Assembly (NCBI GenBank): GCA_030148865.1
Contig: JASBSR010000019.1
Span: 1-64,000, forward strand
DNA length: 64,000 nt
Source of the DNA: Gammaproteobacteria bacterium
GTDB taxonomy: Bacteria; Pseudomonadota; Gammaproteobacteria; SZUA-229
Direction of reading: 5' to 3'
Every line of letters begins with the position of its first letter. Position 1 is the stretch's first letter. Shown here one piece after another: positions 37,498 through 48,026 of the stretch. The notes below the pieces were generated by a model. That model was not told the DNA's origin. It saw nothing but the letters and a program-made list of their open reading frames with translations, and searched no databases. The translations under genes were made by a program, and so were the position numbers.

Positions 37498-38733
37498 ATG
37501 TCACTAAAAGAAGTTAAAGTCCGAATACCCGATATTGAACTGGGCATGTATGTCACGCGTCTGGACAGGCCGTGGCTGGAAACGCCGTTTTTATTACAGG
37601 GCTTCCATATTAAAACCCAGGAAGATATCGATGAATTAATGAAATACTGTGATTACGTTTTCGTTGATGTTGAACTGAGCAAAACTATCGAAAAAAAGGC
37701 CCCTGAGTTCAGTGCCATTGTGCAGTCAGACGATGCAGAAAAGCGACTTCTCATCAATGGCAGACCCAAAATATATAAAGATGAGACCACGCGCGAAGCC
37801 GAGCTGATTACTGCGCGGGAAAGTCATCAGGCACTGAGCAATGTTGCTGAAGATATCATGAAGCATATCTCCAGCAATAAAAAGCTCAATCTACCCATGT
37901 TGCAGCAGGCGATCAATCCGATGGTAGACAGCATCATCCGTAATCCCGATGCTTTTTCCTGGTTGACCTGGATGAAAACCAGGGATGCGTATACCTATAA
38001 CCATTCTGTGAGTGCATCAGTATGGGCGACAGCGTTTGGCCGCCACCTGGGGCTTCCGAAACAGGATCTGCAATCACTTGCCGTGGGTGCGTTGTTGTTT
38101 GATGTCGGCAAAATGAAATTACCTGACAAATTAATTAACAATACAAAACGCTATAACCAGTATGAATTTAAACTTGTAAAACAGCATGTCGATTATAGTG
38201 TTGAAATTGTAAGTTCGATAGATGGCATCAGTGATGCAGTGATTGATATGGTGAAAAACCATCATGAACGTCACAACGGAAACGGTTACCCGAAAGGTCT
38301 GAAAGGAGATGCGATTTCCATTTTTGGAAAAATTGCCGGAATTGTAGATTGCTACGATGCGATTATATCTGAAAGACCATTTGCTACGCCTTTATCACCA
38401 CATGAAGCTGTAAAAAAGTTGTATGAATGGCGCAATATTGATTTTCAGGCGGAACTGGTCGAGCAGTTTATCCAGGTCGTAGGTATTTACCCAGTGGGTA
38501 CTATTGTGGAATTAAGCGACGGCCAGATTGGCGTCATCGTAGCACAGCACAGAATGTGGCGTCTCAGGCCGCAGGTCATGGTGCTGCTAGATGAGAACAA
38601 GAAATCCTGTCAGTCATTCGATGTCGTCAATCTATTTACTAAAACCAAAGATGCTAACGGCTATTCGCTTGATATTGTGAAAAGCGTAGATCCTGGCGTA
38701 TATGGAATTGACCCGAAACAGTTTTACCTGTAG
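37498..38733 (+). CDS. DUF3391/HD-GYP protein with altered HD motif
   Basis: The 411-residue protein has an N-terminal DUF3391 domain (VRIPDIELGMYVTRLDRPWLETPF) and an HD-GYP domain (about 160-340). The GYP part is intact (NHHERHNGNGYPKGLKG) and other metal-site residues are visible (YNHSVSAS, KQHVDYS, GIVDCYDAI). The central HD motif, normally LHDIGK, reads LFDVGK, so a conserved metal-binding His is Phe. HD-GYP proteins hydrolyse c-di-GMP; loss of this His suggests weakened or regulatory function. The EAL gene starts 8 bp after it, so the two act together. A weak -35/-10 (TTGATC, 17 bp, TACTAG) lies only a few bases from the ATG. Confidence 0.88.
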   Translation: MSLKEVKVRIPDIELGMYVTRLDRPWLETPFLLQGFHIKTQEDIDELMKYCDYVFVDVELSKTIEKKAPEFSAIVQSDDAEKRLLINGRPKIYKDETTREAELITARESHQALSNVAEDIMKHISSNKKLNLPMLQQAINPMVDSIIRNPDAFSWLTWMKTRDAYTYNHSVSASVWATAFGRHLGLPKQDLQSLAVGALLFDVGKMKLPDKLINNTKRYNQYEFKLVKQHVDYSVEIVSSIDGISDAVIDMVKNHHERHNGNGYPKGLKGDAISIFGKIAGIVDCYDAIISERPFATPLSPHEAVKKLYEWRNIDFQAELVEQFIQVVGIYPVGTIVELSDGQIGVIVAQHRMWRLRPQVMVLLDENKKSCQSFDVVNLFTKTKDANGYSLDIVKSVDPGVYGIDPKQFYL

Positions 38734-38741
38734 GACTGGAT

Positions 38742-40037
38742 ATGAGTAAGGTTCCAGTATACGTCGCTGATAGAGTTGCTTTATTTAAAGACCTGGAACA
38801 TTTTGTTATTGAGCATCAGGCAGAAGAAAAAAAACTTGCGATCTTATTAATTAATATTAATCATTTCCGACGAATTAATATTGTTTATGGTTACCAGGTG
38901 GGTGATGCTTTACTGACCGAGTTTACCCGACGACTGAGGCATCTATCGCGTGCAGAAGATTACATTGCCCGCATGGGAAATTCGGAATTTATCATGGTAC
39001 TGCCCGGTATTCTCAATGAAGGTCATGCAACACTGGCGGCGCATAAATTATTAAGCAGCTTTGATGAGCCATTTGATCTCGGCGAGCACAAACATAAAAT
39101 AACAGCAGATATGGGTATCGCGCTGTTCCCTGACCATGCCGATAATATACCGGGATTATTTCAAAAAGCTGAAATTGCTTTGCTCGATGCACGTAACCGT
39201 GTGCAATCGTATTCGATTTATTCAGACAATGCAGAACAGCATAATTTTAATGCCTGGGATATCGAAGCGGCGCTGGAAAATGCTTTGGCCGGTGATGAGT
39301 TCGAGTTGTTTTTTCAGCCACAGATTTGCCTGCAAACAGGCCATGTATTCGGTGCAGAAGCATTAATCCGCTGGAATAACCATGATCGTGGCTATATTAG
39401 ACCAGACTTTTTTATCCCGGTAGCCGAGAAAAACGGGCAAATACACAGCATTACCTGGTGGACGATCAACACTGCTCTGCGTCTGATGAAAGACTGGCCA
39501 GACTCATGGGTGCCATTGAAAGTTGCGGTTAATCTTTCCACCAAAATACTGATGGATCCTGATCTTACCGACTCGGTAAACAGCGCTCTCAACCTGTGGG
39601 GAGTTAATCATCACCAGTTTACGCTGGAAGTGACTGAAAGCGCGTTAATGGATGATATGGCTGCCAGTTTTGCGGTGCTGGACGAACTGAAATCGCTGGG
39701 ATTGAATATATCAATCGATGATTTTGGTACCGGCTATTCATCCATGTCATATTTTAAATATGTACCAGCAAACGAACTTAAAATTGATCAATCATTTGTC
39801 AGGTTTATGCTGGAGAGCGACATGGACAGGCACATCGTCAATACAGTGATTAAAATGGCGCACGGTTTTGAACTCAAAGTTGTTGCCGAAGGTATTGAAA
39901 ATGAAGAGACCTATGAAGCGTTAAAAGCCCTGGGTTGTGATGTTGCTCAGGGTCATTATCTGGCCAAACCTATGCCGCAACAGGCGTTTATGCAATGGCT
40001 GGATGACTATAATCAAAAAAAACTGTCAAAAGATTAA
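38742..40037 (+). CDS. degenerate GGDEF plus intact EAL protein
   Basis: The 431-residue soluble protein has a GGDEF-fold domain (about 1-160) whose active site reads ARMGNSEF instead of GGDEF, so cyclase activity is unlikely. An RxxD sequence (RAED) remains five residues before it, so c-di-GMP could still bind. The EAL domain (about 180-425) looks active: GAEALIRW, KVAVNLS, EVTESAL, SIDDFGTGYSS, KIDQSF, AEGIENEE. It is probably a phosphodiesterase with a sensory GGDEF remnant. It forms an operon with the HD-GYP gene, giving two potential c-di-GMP degrading proteins side by side. Confidence 0.9.
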   Translation: MSKVPVYVADRVALFKDLEHFVIEHQAEEKKLAILLININHFRRINIVYGYQVGDALLTEFTRRLRHLSRAEDYIARMGNSEFIMVLPGILNEGHATLAAHKLLSSFDEPFDLGEHKHKITADMGIALFPDHADNIPGLFQKAEIALLDARNRVQSYSIYSDNAEQHNFNAWDIEAALENALAGDEFELFFQPQICLQTGHVFGAEALIRWNNHDRGYIRPDFFIPVAEKNGQIHSITWWTINTALRLMKDWPDSWVPLKVAVNLSTKILMDPDLTDSVNSALNLWGVNHHQFTLEVTESALMDDMAASFAVLDELKSLGLNISIDDFGTGYSSMSYFKYVPANELKIDQSFVRFMLESDMDRHIVNTVIKMAHGFELKVVAEGIENEETYEALKALGCDVAQGHYLAKPMPQQAFMQWLDDYNQKKLSKD

Positions 40038-42767: not shown

Positions 42768-43565
42768 CTATTTCAACAAAGTCTGCAGCTCCTGCGCGCC
42801 AAACATAACGATTTCAATTGCGATCAGGATAATAATAATCCATTCTAGAAACGAAGAGTGCTGATGCTTCATTTCGTCTGCCAGCATTTCAAATAACTCG
42901 TGAATAGTTTCTAGTTTTTTTGAGAGCAGGTCGATGCGCTGGTGTATTTCAAGATAGCGCGCAGCAATATTATAAGTGGTCTCGTATTCGGGGTACTCCC
43001 AGAAAAACTCAGGTGTATCAAGCAGGCCGTAATGCAAAATAATATCACTCTTAGTGCTGAACAGGCGGCCGCGAATTTTTGCAATTTCACGTCGACTGAT
43101 CGATATTTTACCGCTGTTTGCCAGTGCCCGTGGTAAATCAGAGTGGTCCTGTATCGTGCACTGCGCCTGCCACTCATACTCAGCAAGCTTCAATGACTGT
43201 GCGATTGCATGGCTGACAGCAAGACGTGTCAGTGGGTTGTCGTCGATTAATGTGATGGTGTCACGGTTAATGCGGATTTCTTTCCCGTTTGTGATAAAGC
43301 GAAAATGCTCCTGCTGGCAGCCTTCATTTTGTTTGCCATCTATATTGAGTCTGTTCAATAAGGCTTTGCGCTCATCTTCATCAACCGCCCAGAATACAAC
43401 TACGCCGTAATCAAAAACCCAGGCTTCACCGCTTGGCAGGCTGATATGTACGGCATCACGATAACGTACCCCGCGTTCATCATTTAAGAAATCAGATTCA
43501 TCGGCTGGTGCAAGATAAACATCGCCGAAGTTAAATGCAGATAAGCGATCATTTCTAAAAGTCAT
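42768..43565 (-). CDS. RMD1/YagE (DUF155) family protein
   Basis: The 265-residue protein is of the RMD1/DUF155 family. It has AWVFDYGVVVFWAVDEDERKALL, then LAVSHAIAQSLKLAEYE, and a helical part ETTYNIAARYLEIHQRIDLLSKKLETIHE. A C-terminal membrane anchor (SSFLEWIIIILIAIEIVMFG) closes it. In yeast RMD1 relatives act in mitochondria or meiosis; bacterial function is unknown. The gene follows the RimK-like gene on the minus strand with a 12-bp gap, so it is likely co-expressed. The tail-anchored topology would place the domain in the cytoplasm at the inner membrane. Confidence 0.85.
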   Translation of the reverse strand: MTFRNDRLSAFNFGDVYLAPADESDFLNDERGVRYRDAVHISLPSGEAWVFDYGVVVFWAVDEDERKALLNRLNIDGKQNEGCQQEHFRFITNGKEIRINRDTITLIDDNPLTRLAVSHAIAQSLKLAEYEWQAQCTIQDHSDLPRALANSGKISISRREIAKIRGRLFSTKSDIILHYGLLDTPEFFWEYPEYETTYNIAARYLEIHQRIDLLSKKLETIHELFEMLADEMKHQHSSFLEWIIIILIAIEIVMFGAQELQTLLK

Positions 43566-43577
43566 AATTTACACGTC

Positions 43578-45086
43578 TTAATTGAGTGATGCGGTAGTCC
43601 CATTACGTCGGGCTTCCATGCGATGCATTATTTCTGAAATAATAATTTTATAGAGTTTGTCACCGAGGTAGGCGTCTTCGACACCGTGGTCGATATTGGG
43701 GTTGTCGTTGACCTCGATGACATAACCGACACCGTTCTTCTCTTTAATGTCAACACCGTAAAGACCGTTACCGATAGGCCGTGTTGCTTTCATCGCGGCG
43801 TCGAGTACGGCTTTTGGTGCTTCGAAAGTAGGTAATGTCTCAAAATTTCCAGAGGCGGTTTTAGTCGCGCCATGCTGATAAATTTGCCAGTGATTGCGTA
43901 CCATATAATATCGACAGGCGTAGATAGGCTCATTATTGAGTACGCCGATACGCCAGTCAAAGTTGGTGTAAAGAAATTCCTGTGCGAGCAGTAATGTCGA
44001 TTTTTGAAATAGTCTATCCAGTACCACATGTAACTCGGCACGATCTTTTACTTTTTCTACACCAACTGAAAATGAGCCATCTGGAATCTTCAATACCATC
44101 GGGTAGTCCAGAGTCGCTTCCAGATTTTCGATTTGTTTGGGTTTGCCTTTGTGGAGTAGTACTGTTTGAGGTGCCGGCACTTTGTTGGCCTTGAACAAGT
44201 CGGCCAGATAAATTTTGTTGGTGCAGCGTAAAATCGAGGTGGGGTCATCGATTACGACCATACCTTCAACTTCTGCACGTTTCGCGAAGCGATAGGTGTA
44301 ATGATTAATCGAGGTCGTCGCTCGAATAAACAGACCGTCGTACTCCGGCAGGCGCAAATAGTCACGTTGATTGATTAACTCACAGTCGATGCCCATGGCC
44401 TTGCCGGTTGAAATGAAGCGTTTCAGCGCGGTTTTATTTGACGGCGGCATCTTTTCGTCAGGGTCGACCAGGATGGCGAGGTCGTAACGAAACTGTTTTC
44501 TGGATTGTCTTTTGCGCCAGACCTTGCGGCTAAAGTCATCCAGCGCTTTTGCAAACACGGTTTCGTTTTCATCGTCGAGTACGCTGTGGCTGCGAATCTT
44601 CAACATTTCGACTTTCCAGCTTTTGTCGTGGCGTAGAGTAATCTCCAGCACTGGGCAGGGAAATAGCTCGAACAGCTTGCGCGCCAGCTCACTATATTCG
44701 GTATCTACGGTGGTGCCGAAGAAGCTCAGTATCTGGGTCTGGCCATCACCTTCAACCGGTGCCGGTTTTTTGGCGAGCATGGCGGGCATGTAATTAATCT
44801 GCAGGCGGTACAGCGAGCGTTTGCTCAGATCATTCAGGGTTCGCACCGAAGGAATCACCCCCTGACCGCGGGCTTCGGCAAACAAGGAACAGTAATAGCC
44901 CGTCGACAGATAGTTATTGTTGCGGCACAGGTTGATAATGCGCAAACGCACGCCTTTGGCGTCTGAATTGTTGATCTTGTCCGGGTAGCCGCCATCGAGA
45001 TATTCCTCGAAAGTGAGGACATTTTCACTGGGATAGTATGGCTCCCAGGCGGCTTTGTTATCTATAATAATCAGTGTATCGGACAT
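43578..45086 (-). CDS. RimK-like ATP-grasp ligase with RLAN N-terminal domain
   Basis: The 502-residue protein has an N-terminal RimK-like ATP-grasp leader domain (about 1-200; GVRLRIINLCRNNNYLSTGYYCSLFAEARGQ). A canonical ATP-grasp follows (about 290-490): CTNKIYLADLFKANKVPAPQT, DYPMVLKIPDGSFSVGVEKV with the ATP Lys, and GYVIEVNDNPNIDHGVED with the metal-binding Glu/Asn. RimK-type enzymes add amino acids (often glutamate) to the C-terminus of proteins or small peptides. The substrate is not evident; the linked peptidase-like and GNAT-C39 genes on the opposite strand suggest a peptide product that is also cleaved or modified. Confidence 0.88.
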   Translation of the reverse strand: MSDTLIIIDNKAAWEPYYPSENVLTFEEYLDGGYPDKINNSDAKGVRLRIINLCRNNNYLSTGYYCSLFAEARGQGVIPSVRTLNDLSKRSLYRLQINYMPAMLAKKPAPVEGDGQTQILSFFGTTVDTEYSELARKLFELFPCPVLEITLRHDKSWKVEMLKIRSHSVLDDENETVFAKALDDFSRKVWRKRQSRKQFRYDLAILVDPDEKMPPSNKTALKRFISTGKAMGIDCELINQRDYLRLPEYDGLFIRATTSINHYTYRFAKRAEVEGMVVIDDPTSILRCTNKIYLADLFKANKVPAPQTVLLHKGKPKQIENLEATLDYPMVLKIPDGSFSVGVEKVKDRAELHVVLDRLFQKSTLLLAQEFLYTNFDWRIGVLNNEPIYACRYYMVRNHWQIYQHGATKTASGNFETLPTFEAPKAVLDAAMKATRPIGNGLYGVDIKEKNGVGYVIEVNDNPNIDHGVEDAYLGDKLYKIIISEIMHRMEARRNGTTASLN

Positions 45087-45202
45087 GACCTTTCCAGTCG
45101 GTAATCAGCTGGCAATTGTGCGGCTTGGGCGGTGGTCAGACAATCATTTTTTAAAAATATTTTCGTAAACTAAATATTTATTCGATCACGCGGAGTATTC
45201 TT

Positions 45203-45236
45203 AGCGCTCTCGGGTCTGAGCCCGCGCTGACTTTTT
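45203..45236 (+). terminator. terminator-like hairpin 12 bp before the DUF2817 gene
   Basis: The stem pairs AGCG and CGGG with CCCG and CGCT around the loop TCTGAG. After GAC comes TTTTT (45232-45236). It points along the plus strand within the 161-bp divergent gap, so it could attenuate the DUF2817/GNAT-C39 transcript. The pairing is interrupted (CTCT bulge), so strength is uncertain. Confidence 0.45.
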
Positions 45237-45247
45237 GAGATGTAGCC

Positions 45248-46345
45248 ATGTCCCTGCCTGTTGCCCTGAATGTCGAAGCCCTGAATGTCTTTCCGGGCAG
45301 TTACCGGCAGGCACGCGCCCGTTTTCTTGAACGCGTCAGCAGCTGCTCTCTGACTCAGGAGCAGCAGAGTTACCCGGTCTCGGGTGTATTGACCCGGCCG
45401 GACACTGTGCTCAGTACGGAACTTGCCTGGCTGGGATCACGCCAGGCAGCCAGGGTGCTGGTGCTGATATCGGCCACCCATGGGATCGAAGGATTTGTTG
45501 GTGCGGCGGTGCAGAATGATCTGCTGGCGCGATTCCAGGAGGGCTATGCGTTAGCGAACGATACTGCGGTGTTGCTGGTGTTCGCGCTCAATCCCTATGG
45601 CTTCGCGTATCATCGCCGTTGTGATGAAAAAGGCATTGACCTGAACCGCAATTTTGTCGATTTCAACAAAGCGTTGCCGGCCAATCCAGGCTATCAGGAT
45701 CTACAGGCGAGTATCTACCAGCACGATCCCGGCTTACGAGACATGGAATTTCAACGCTATCGAGACATCTGCGGGCGAACTGCATTTGAGATTGCGATTA
45801 GCGGAGGTCAGTATACGGATCCAGACGGACCTTTTTTTGGTGGCCATGAACCGGCGCACGGTAGACGGGTCATAGAGCACCTCAGTGAACTGTATCAGCT
45901 GGACTCACGGCAGCTGGCGATAATCGATGTTCATTCTGGTCTGGGGCCTTACGCACACGGCGAGGTCATCAATGATCATCCACTGAAAACGCCTGGCTAT
46001 GAAGTGGCGAATCTCTGGTATGGTGCCAGTGTGACAGCGCCAGCGACAGGCAATTCCAGTTCGGTGAATAAGCAGGGTTTGCTGGATTATCATTGGCATG
46101 CTCTGATGCCGCAACGCGGCTGCTGTGTCACGCTTGAATTTGGTAGCTATCACACTGAGCGTTTATTTGACGTGATACTAGAAGACCACCGTGCCTGGAA
46201 AGCATTTGATACAGACGCGATGCGTGACAGCGCGGTAGCGATGCAAGAACATTTTTGTCCACGGGACAGTTACTGGCAGGAGTTAGTGTTGATTAAGGCC
46301 AGGCAGGTGATACAGCAGGCATTGGATGGTCTCCGACATGGTTAA
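45248..46345 (+). CDS. DUF2817 zinc carboxypeptidase-like protein (M14-related)
   Basis: The 365-residue protein has the zinc-site pattern of M14-type hydrolases. SATHGIEGFVG provides His and Glu, LNPYGFAYHRRCDEKGIDLNRNF supplies the substrate-binding Asn-Arg region, and IIDVHSGLGPYAHGEV gives the next His. TLEFGSYH, late in the chain, has a candidate catalytic Glu. DUF2817 proteins have unknown substrates but look like peptidases or amidohydrolases. It lies divergent to the RimK-like gene and overlaps the GNAT-C39 gene, suggesting one peptide-handling unit. No signal peptide is seen. Confidence 0.85.
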   Translation: MSLPVALNVEALNVFPGSYRQARARFLERVSSCSLTQEQQSYPVSGVLTRPDTVLSTELAWLGSRQAARVLVLISATHGIEGFVGAAVQNDLLARFQEGYALANDTAVLLVFALNPYGFAYHRRCDEKGIDLNRNFVDFNKALPANPGYQDLQASIYQHDPGLRDMEFQRYRDICGRTAFEIAISGGQYTDPDGPFFGGHEPAHGRRVIEHLSELYQLDSRQLAIIDVHSGLGPYAHGEVINDHPLKTPGYEVANLWYGASVTAPATGNSSSVNKQGLLDYHWHALMPQRGCCVTLEFGSYHTERLFDVILEDHRAWKAFDTDAMRDSAVAMQEHFCPRDSYWQELVLIKARQVIQQALDGLRHG

Positions 46346-47462
46346 GCAGACGTTTATTATTGAATCGGCAACACTGCTGCATCTGGATGAATTGCTGGAG
46401 CTGGAACAGAAATGTTTTAGTACCGACCGCTTGAGTCGCCGTAGTATGCGTCGCTTCCTCGTTAGCGAGCAGAGCGTATTTCTAGTGGCGAAAAATAATG
46501 ATCATGTCCTGGCTTATCTGCTGGTCATATTTCATCGTGGTACACGTCTGGCACGACTATATTCGATTGCTGTGCACCCGCAATGGCAGGGGCAGGGTAT
46601 CGCACGTGCCCTCATGGACAGTGGCGAAGCTGAGGCACAGACACGGGGTGCCTTGCATTTTCGTCTCGAAGTGAGTCGTAATAATCATAATGCCATACGC
46701 CTGTATCACTCGTTGGGATTTATCGATTTTGGTTTATTGCCAGATTATTACGATGATCACAGCGATGCGCTGCGGATGCAAAAGCGCATCCGTTATCACG
46801 ATCACGCTTTAGTTAACTCGACCATGTCATGGTATCAACAAAGCACCGCGTTCACCTGTGGCCCCGCCGCGCTGATGATGGCAATGAATGGATTAAACGC
46901 ATCGTATACACCAGTGCTGAGCGAAGAACTGGAAATATGGCGCGAATCAACCACGATATTTATGACTTCGGGTCATGGTGGCTGCCATCCTTTAGGACTG
47001 GCATTGGCGGCAAAAAAACGTGGTTACAACGCAGAAGTCTGGATGAGCCAGCGTGAACCATTGTTCACTGAAGGAGTACGTAGTGAGGAGAAAAAATCTA
47101 TCATTGCGACAGTGCATAATGATTATGCCAAACAAAGCAAAGCCGAAGGTATCATCATACACTACGCTAATATTAACCAGAGCACCTTAATTGATGCCTG
47201 TAAGCACGGCGCAATTCCAGTTGTTTTGATTAGCACCTATCGTATGGATCGTAAAAAAGCACCGCACTGGGTGACAGTCAGTGGATACGATGAGCAATGT
47301 TTTTATGTGCACGACCCTGATCCCGATAAAAAACATCAGGATATTTTTGATTGCCAGCATTTACCGATAGCGCTGGAAGATTTTGATCCTATGTCTTCCT
47401 TTGGTAGTAATCGTCTGCGCACGGCAGTAATTTTATCGCCTGCTAGCAATAATAAAGCCTGA
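46338..47462 (+). CDS. GNAT acetyltransferase fused to C39-like peptidase
   Basis: The protein has about 374 residues; ATG 46326 is an alternative start. Residues 1-150 form a RimI-like GNAT domain with the acetyl-CoA loop AVHPQWQGQGIARALMDSG and LHFRLEVSRNNHNAIRLYHSLGF. Residues about 160-370 form a papain-like C39 domain. Its nucleophile Cys is in STAFTCGPAALMMAM, the His in KAPHWVTVSGYD, and an Asp in YVHDPDPDKK. C39 peptidases typically cut after double glycine in leader peptides. Fusion to an acetyltransferase and linkage to a RimK-like ligase suggest maturation or disposal of a small modified peptide. No substrate gene is recognised. Confidence 0.88.
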   Translation: MVKQTFIIESATLLHLDELLELEQKCFSTDRLSRRSMRRFLVSEQSVFLVAKNNDHVLAYLLVIFHRGTRLARLYSIAVHPQWQGQGIARALMDSGEAEAQTRGALHFRLEVSRNNHNAIRLYHSLGFIDFGLLPDYYDDHSDALRMQKRIRYHDHALVNSTMSWYQQSTAFTCGPAALMMAMNGLNASYTPVLSEELEIWRESTTIFMTSGHGGCHPLGLALAAKKRGYNAEVWMSQREPLFTEGVRSEEKKSIIATVHNDYAKQSKAEGIIIHYANINQSTLIDACKHGAIPVVLISTYRMDRKKAPHWVTVSGYDEQCFYVHDPDPDKKHQDIFDCQHLPIALEDFDPMSSFGSNRLRTAVILSPASNNKA

Positions 47463-47478: not shown

Positions 47479-47949
47479 TTAGCGGTCGAGTGTACCCAGA
47501 TCTAGCACCGGTGAGGCATCAAGGTGTTGTGCATCCATCATCTGAGCGACGCGTTGCAGAGCGGAGACTATCATCGTTTGTTCCCACTGCTGTAGTTCTG
47601 AAAATTGCATGGCGAACTGTTCCTGCAGTGGGATTGGTGCATTTTTTAAAGTATTGCGTGCGGCCACTGTCAGGTGTGCATGTACTTTACGCTTGTCAGT
47701 GCTCGAGCGTTCACGATACACCAGCTGGCGGGCTTCGAGACGATCAAGAATCGTTGTCACCGTTGACTGACTCAGGCTCATTTCGTTGGCGAGCTCACCG
47801 ATCGTGACTTCGCCCTTATTCTGGATGGTCTGCAGCAATAATATCTGGGGCGCCGTCAGCCCCGTGGTCTTCGCCAGATGCCTGGAATGCAGGTCAGTGG
47901 CGCGGATTACGCGTCGTAATGCAACCAGGACTTCATTTATCTGATCCAT
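47479..47949 (-). CDS. ectR: MarR-type ectoine operon repressor EctR
   Basis: The 156-residue protein starts at ATG 47949 with CGGAG upstream; ATG 48012 is an in-frame alternative adding 21 residues. The winged helix-turn-helix shows TGLTAPQILLLQTIQNKGEV, IGELANEMSLSQSTVTTILDRLEARQLVYRE and the wing SSTDKRKVHAHLT. It is divergent to ectABC, as in methylotrophs where EctR1 represses the ectABC promoter and is relieved at high salt. Assignment as EctR rests on family plus position. Confidence 0.85.
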   Translation of the reverse strand: MDQINEVLVALRRVIRATDLHSRHLAKTTGLTAPQILLLQTIQNKGEVTIGELANEMSLSQSTVTTILDRLEARQLVYRERSSTDKRKVHAHLTVAARNTLKNAPIPLQEQFAMQFSELQQWEQTMIVSALQRVAQMMDAQHLDASPVLDLGTLDR

Positions 47950-48026
47950 CGCAGCTTTTCTCCGAGCTGGTTGATCTTCGTAAACACCGCTGTGCCGCCC
48001 TGCCAGGGGCATGATGCCTGTATATA

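Follow-up and report, generated by a model that had tools for sequence, protein, structure and literature searches.

A recurring gammaproteobacterial module of RLAN-RimK ligase, GNAT-papain-like, DUF2817 and RMD1 proteins, probably acting on a small peptide

The ATP-grasp ligases LysX, ArgX and RimK join glutamate-like residues at protein carboxyl ends. The arrangement of an RLAN-RimK ligase beside a GNAT-papain-like protein is another known theme, reportedly described through comparative genomics by Iyer et al. in 2009. The genes for N-acetylglutaminylglutamine amide (NAGGN) follow a logic of GNAT, ATP-grasp and hydrolase, and microviridin clusters contain ATP-grasp, GNAT and C39 genes. The GCS2 and FGase families are small-molecule enzymes. 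Fusions of DUF3335 to GNAT are frequent according to one paper, which refers to Iyer et al. 2009 (PMC10318531). Another presents the proposal that RMND1 tethers mitochondrial ribosomes (PMC7564844). Here, we compare with these systems a locus that unites an RLAN-RimK ligase and a GNAT-DUF3335 protein with a bacterial RMD1 protein and a DUF2817 hydrolase.

Organization of the locus and its core pair

The analysed window is a stretch of 64,000 nt of contig JASBSR010000019.1 (GCA_030148865.1; Gammaproteobacteria SZUA-229), and all positions are coordinates within it. An ORF check and Pfam profiles showed that the four ORFs are uninterrupted and belong to the families already assigned to them in the first-pass annotation. 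On the minus strand, the gene of a 265-aa RMD1/DUF155 (RMND1) protein (42768-43565; PF02582, E 7e-49, 166.7 bits, cut-off 27) starts 12 nt past the stop of a 502-aa RLAN-RimK ATP-grasp amidoligase (43578-45086; PF14401 for RLAN, E 6.6e-43, together with RimK/ATP-grasp), which exceeds the Pfam cut-offs for both PF14401 (146.4 bits) and PF08443 (34.1 bits). On the plus strand, the gene of a 365-aa DUF2817 protein, a predicted M14/aspartoacylase-like zinc hydrolase (45248-46345; PF10994, E 1.1e-80), overlaps by 20 nt that of a 378-aa protein, in which GNAT is fused to a DUF3335 papain-like (C39-like) domain (46326-47462; PF00583, 6.5e-19; PF11814, 'Peptidase_C39 like', 2.1e-86). The two tight gene pairs diverge out of a 161-bp gap (45087-45247), where scans for ORFs and promoters found neither a conserved small ORF nor a sigma-70-like site, the promoter scan giving no excess of sites.

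The locus is followed by the gene of a MarR-type regulator adjoining ectABC (47479-48012, minus strand; PF01047, 8.3e-19), which does not recur beside RLAN in the fetched RLAN loci and which we judge to be a member of the ect locus, outside the module. Upstream of the four genes, HD-GYP (DUF3391) and GGDEF-EAL genes are present at 37498-40037, and their proximity may or may not matter for the module; regulation of the Pseudomonas RimK by an EAL protein has been proposed (PMC12239564). When the four proteins were compared with the PADLOC models at E 0.01, no family was matched (0 families), and a role in anti-phage defence was rejected.

Conservation was assessed in two samples of gammaproteobacterial genomes, one of 143 genomes with nearly one per family and one of 369 genomes without this spacing, every count including the window's own genome. 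RLAN is widespread, being present in 34 of the 143 and 81 of the 369 genomes. Strong DUF3335 matches (>200 bits) occur in 23 of the 143 genomes, all of which also contain RLAN (Fisher 1.3e-18, a value that, like all Fisher and binomial values given here, disregards phylogeny). The two genes are adjacent in 22 of these 23 genomes, the exception being G060, where they lie on separate contigs; four weak DUF3335 matches (21 to 25 bits), two of them in genomes with RLAN (G004 and G116), were excluded from the count. Both genomic marks of the RLAN-RimK/GNAT-papain neighbourhood, namely the RLAN-RimK fusion and a GNAT-papain fusion nearby, are thus present in the window. This core pair is already described and is not new, so that the first-pass view of a ligase, capping and hydrolase peptide system, which still offers the best reading, loses the epithet 'undescribed' as far as the core is concerned.

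The ATP-grasp residues K291, K333, D446, E458 and N460 of RLAN-RimK are invariant in 67 sequences; peptide ligase activity is a predicted feature of RLAN-RimK/GNAT-papain neighbourhoods. In the predicted ligase structure (pLDDT 89), the ATP-grasp part (residues 201-491) best resembles LysX (Z 28.0), ArgX (27.9) and RimK (26-27); the ligase rows of VIA-align cover residues 199-499, i.e. the likeness concerns the ATP-grasp part and hardly the RLAN part. The models of canonical RimK, the S6 glutamate ligase, remain below their cut-offs (NF007764, 33 of 331 bits; TIGR00768, 69.9 of 143.4), as does the LysX model TIGR02144 (70.5 bits, cut-off 275.6). In GNAT-C39, Q172, C178 and H314 are invariant and D330 is conserved in at least 90% of 56 sequences. 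By sequence, the nearest relatives of its GNAT among known structures are the N-terminal acetyltransferases Ard1 and RimI, and its score with the RimI model TIGR01575 (84.3 bits) is just under the cut-off of 86.4. The papain-like domain had been taken for a leader-peptidase fold; it reaches only 14.9 bits with PF03412, the leader peptidase of ABC exporters (cut-off 22), and DUF3335 is a family of its own, close to the C39 peptidases that cleave leaders for exporters.

RMD1 and DUF2817 beside the ligase

RMD1 is a real partner of the module, beyond chance. Indeed, matches to the window RMD1 occur in 48 of the 369 genomes, 27 of which also carry RLAN (Fisher 2.1e-8), and DUF155 exceeds its cut-off in 22 of the 143 genomes, 13 of them with RLAN (p 1.1e-4). 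RMD1 lies within 5 kb of RLAN in 10 of the 27 genomes carrying both, where random placement expects about 0.1. These ten genomes come from eight families (G000; G004 and G293; G094; G101 and G340; G265; G272; G323; G357), and a further case with a distance of about 7 kb is found in G022 by the Pfam-model match alone. The linked cases cover three architectures, with RMD1 at differing ends of the cluster. GNAT-C39, RLAN and RMD1 are consecutive in G265, G357 and G340, GNAT-C39 is divergent from RLAN-RMD1 in G323, and all four families follow each other on one strand in G272 (locus L248), in the Pfam-confirmed order RLAN, DUF2817, GNAT-C39, RMD1. All four families are also united in the window and in loci L159, L149, L051 and L054, giving six such loci with L248. 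A quick tree built from 73 RLAN proteins, its leaves enriched for linked cases, requires at least 10 changes of RMD1 linkage. Furthermore, the RMD1 subfamily nearest to that of the window (at least 233 bits) occurs in seven genomes, all seven with RLAN and four with linkage. Since the families recur together, a chance neighbourhood was rejected for both RLAN/GNAT-C39 and RMD1, on the adjacency and linkage counts.

The RMD1 model (mean pLDDT 84) displays an N-terminal alpha/beta domain followed by helices, one at 207-264, that lead into a C-terminal hydrophobic segment, a putative tail anchor. Comparison of this predicted fold over its full length with CorA/Mrs2/ZntB gave Z 6-9 across about 160-220 residues, a range that, as the tool warns, may reflect a common arrangement alone; the best Foldseek E with CorA was 3.5e-3. 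On the other hand, hhalign of RMD1 against 23 CorA sequences returned a probability of 0.2%, similar to that of unrelated controls, and the RMD1 sequence contains neither a GMN motif nor a second transmembrane helix. Because of the hhalign result, and despite the suggestive fold comparison, we do not claim CorA homology. It would be a rather doubtful extension that the RMD1/RMND1 family started out in bacteria by anchoring an ATP-grasp peptide-ligase module to the membrane; what RMND1 does in mitochondrial translation would in that case go back to the attachment of a peptide-modifying enzyme, or of that enzyme's ribosomal target, at the inner membrane, perhaps via a CorA-like oligomer whose channel was lost.

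The second partner, DUF2817, comes and goes. Among the 120 RLAN loci fetched, 40 of which stem from the class sample and its relatives and 80 of which are the nearest in named genomes, it adjoins RLAN in 22, is divergent from RLAN in all 22, and is next to GNAT-C39 wherever the contig extends that far. Of the 143 genomes, 5 have strong matches, which lie beside RLAN in 3; with a p value of 0.087, the co-occurrence by itself is not significant, seven weak-match genomes, one of which (G025) has RLAN, having been excluded. The tree of 73 RLAN proteins requires seven changes in the presence of DUF2817. One strong match, L161 (G107:C1:709620-710651), carries an internal TAG and belongs to a genome without RLAN. 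Since both DUF2817 and RMD1 are missing from most RLAN loci, neither is essential.

DUF2817 also gives weak matches to the AstE/AspA and M14 profiles of Pfam. Its residues H78, E81, N133, R134, H229 and E297 are invariant in an alignment of 21 sequences and presumably correspond to the residues that bind zinc, bind the carboxylate and act in catalysis in M14-type enzymes (HxxE, H, E). A search of solved structures gave no hit better than E 0.4 for either DUF2817 or RMD1.

Variant architectures and the probable chemistry

A GNAT without the papain-like part stands beside RLAN in 28 of the 120 loci, mostly from Rhodanobacteraceae, Lysobacteraceae and some Pseudomonas; in G040, the sole such genome of the 143-genome sample, DUF3335 was found nowhere. 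Since GNAT and RLAN occur without the papain-like part, the ligase and the capping enzyme look like the core. In a sister clade, a standalone C39-like protein is encoded together with RLAN, the ligase GCS2 and the hydrolase FGase. Of 40 sampled loci, 6 have the whole set and 2 others a part of it; GNAT-C39 is never beside this set in these 40 loci. The RLAN proteins of the C39/GCS2/FGase loci form one clade on the quick tree, and RMD1 is linked there as well (G004 and G293). The replacement of GNAT by GCS2 indicates that the N-capping enzyme appears exchangeable, with an acetyl or a glutamyl cap, and this swap restricts the probable chemistry to the N-capping of a small peptide; the zinc hydrolase likewise appears exchangeable, with FGase in the place of DUF2817.

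The C39-like, RLAN-RimK, GCS2 and FGase genes of the sister clade form a single row in L139, L249, L133, L135, L138, L144 and L150, some with RMD1. In 5 of the 40 loci (L120, L126, L134, L142, L146), GNAT-C39 and the gene of an M20/ArgE-like peptidase point away from each other. In L140 (2869-5750), a class-III aminotransferase directly follows RLAN-RimK, and GNAT and C39 are not next door.

The four genes are part of a recurring module whose probable task is the synthesis, capping and degradation of a small peptide. From the co-occurrence, the linkage, the intact active-site residues and the predicted folds, we infer the chemical steps, the product and what RMD1 does, and tentatively favour a module in the cytoplasm, anchored to the membrane, for the production and recycling of a small, N-capped and acidic-residue-rich peptide. 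RLAN-RimK would spend ATP on attaching a most likely glutamate-like amino acid to an acceptor carboxylate, and the GNAT domain would acetylate the amino end; in the sister clade, GCS2 would add a glutamyl group instead. The papain-like domain and DUF2817, or FGase in the sister clade, would trim or break down the product, and RMD1 would tie the enzymes to the inner membrane. We prefer a small N-capped peptide because ligase and capper constitute the minimal core, because GCS2 and FGase, present in the sister clade, are small-molecule enzymes, and because no gene for a target protein or precursor recurs among the neighbour families and the largest small-ORF clusters near RLAN. Several points count against this preference: RMD1 often occurs without RLAN (21 of 48 genomes), the core genes of G060 are on separate contigs, and both the kinship of the GNAT and the tie of RMND1 to ribosomes would fit a protein target better.

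Such a target defines the main rival, the editing of protein tails, which we regard as somewhat unlikely but serious, given the N-terminal-acetyltransferase kinship and RMD1. Here, RLAN-RimK would extend the C-terminus of a cellular, perhaps ribosomal, protein whose N-terminus the GNAT would acetylate, DUF2817 and the papain-like domain would remove the tail, and RMD1 would bring the ribosome or the target to the membrane. The nearest ligases, LysX, ArgX and RimK, do work on protein carboxyl ends, and the GNAT is closest to Ard1 and RimI. The tether role proposed for RMND1 points the same way (PMC7564844). However, no recurrent target gene accompanies RLAN. After clustering of 1629 small ORFs near RLAN, the 15 largest clusters were inspected, and all but one are confined to one genus or close kin (e.g. 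Marinobacter); the sole cross-genus cluster, present in three loci, consists of what we take to be a cold-shock-like protein, and no other widespread neighbour family was seen. Furthermore, the small-molecule substrates of GCS2 and FGase disagree with a protein target.

A second rival, quite unlikely in our view, is a NAGGN-like osmolyte, in which ligase and acetyltransferase would supply an N-acetyl dipeptide as solute, to be removed by the hydrolase when salt falls. The kinds of parts are similar (ATP-grasp, GNAT, metallo-hydrolase), ectABC adjoins the locus, and EctC, found in 14 of the 143 genomes, weakly co-occurs with RLAN (7 of 14, p 0.023). However, among these 14 genomes EctC adjoins RLAN in the window's genome alone, EctB was not found within the 16 kb surrounding L159, the locus of the closest relative, the NAGGN synthetase model TIGR03103 stays below its cut-off with 23.2 of 569 bits, aligned with the GNAT part only, and Pfam detects no asparagine synthetase or M42 gene in the cluster. 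The link to ectABC was therefore rejected, and the connection with salt stress raised by the first-pass annotation has little support.

That RMD1 is a bystander in a shared expression slot, outside the chemistry, is improbable: its absence from the 5-kb vicinity of RLAN in 17 of the 27 genomes carrying both, and of RLAN itself from 21 of the 48 RMD1 genomes, would suit such a role, but the spread of linkage over eight families, three architectures and differing cluster ends, its repeated changes on the RLAN tree and the confinement of the closest subfamily to RLAN genomes argue otherwise. A graspetide-like RiPP, in which ATP-grasp, GNAT and C39 enzymes would process a precursor peptide, is highly improbable, since, although these three terms occur in two microviridin papers (PMC7823629, PMC13039773), no TxRxPSD motif was found near RLAN and the 15 largest small-ORF clusters contain no cross-genus candidate precursor apart from the cold-shock protein, the precursor being rejected on this ground, and the papain domain lacks a fused ABC transporter.

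Comparison with known systems

Compared with the first-pass annotation, the real partnership of RMD1, the intermittent presence of DUF2817 and the replacement of GNAT by GCS2 in the sister clade are additions. In a literature search covering few subscription journals, we found no report linking RMD1 or DUF2817 to RLAN-RimK, nor any on an experimental function of the cluster or on the product of the core pair; Iyer et al. 2009 may already list some of the DUF2817/RMD1 partners. RMD1 is a bacterial cousin of the human mitochondrial disease protein RMND1, and its link to RLAN offers a simple bacterial setting for tests.

The NAGGN osmolyte genes share with the window module the logic of GNAT, ATP-grasp and hydrolase, whereas the families of the window differ, with neither a GNAT-ATP-grasp fusion nor an amidotransferase. 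LysX and ArgX, which act with the carrier protein LysW, are the closest folds to the ATP-grasp part (Z 28), but the window ligase falls under the LysX cut-off and no carrier gene is seen at the cluster. The neighbourhoods of Iyer et al. 2009 have the same ligase architecture and adjacent GNAT-papain protein, with a GCS2 variant among relatives; the window locus additionally contains DUF2817 and RMD1. RimK/RimB (RloABC) of Pseudomonas likewise combines a RimK-fold ligase with a trimming peptidase, the latter being the aspartic peptidase RimB, whereas an RLAN extension, a GNAT-papain partner and an M14-like hydrolase are present here (PMC12239564). Finally, the mitochondrial translation proteins RMND1/RMD1 have their Pfam family and a C-terminal membrane segment in common with the window protein, which, unlike them, is bacterial and connected with an amidoligase module through its gene order.
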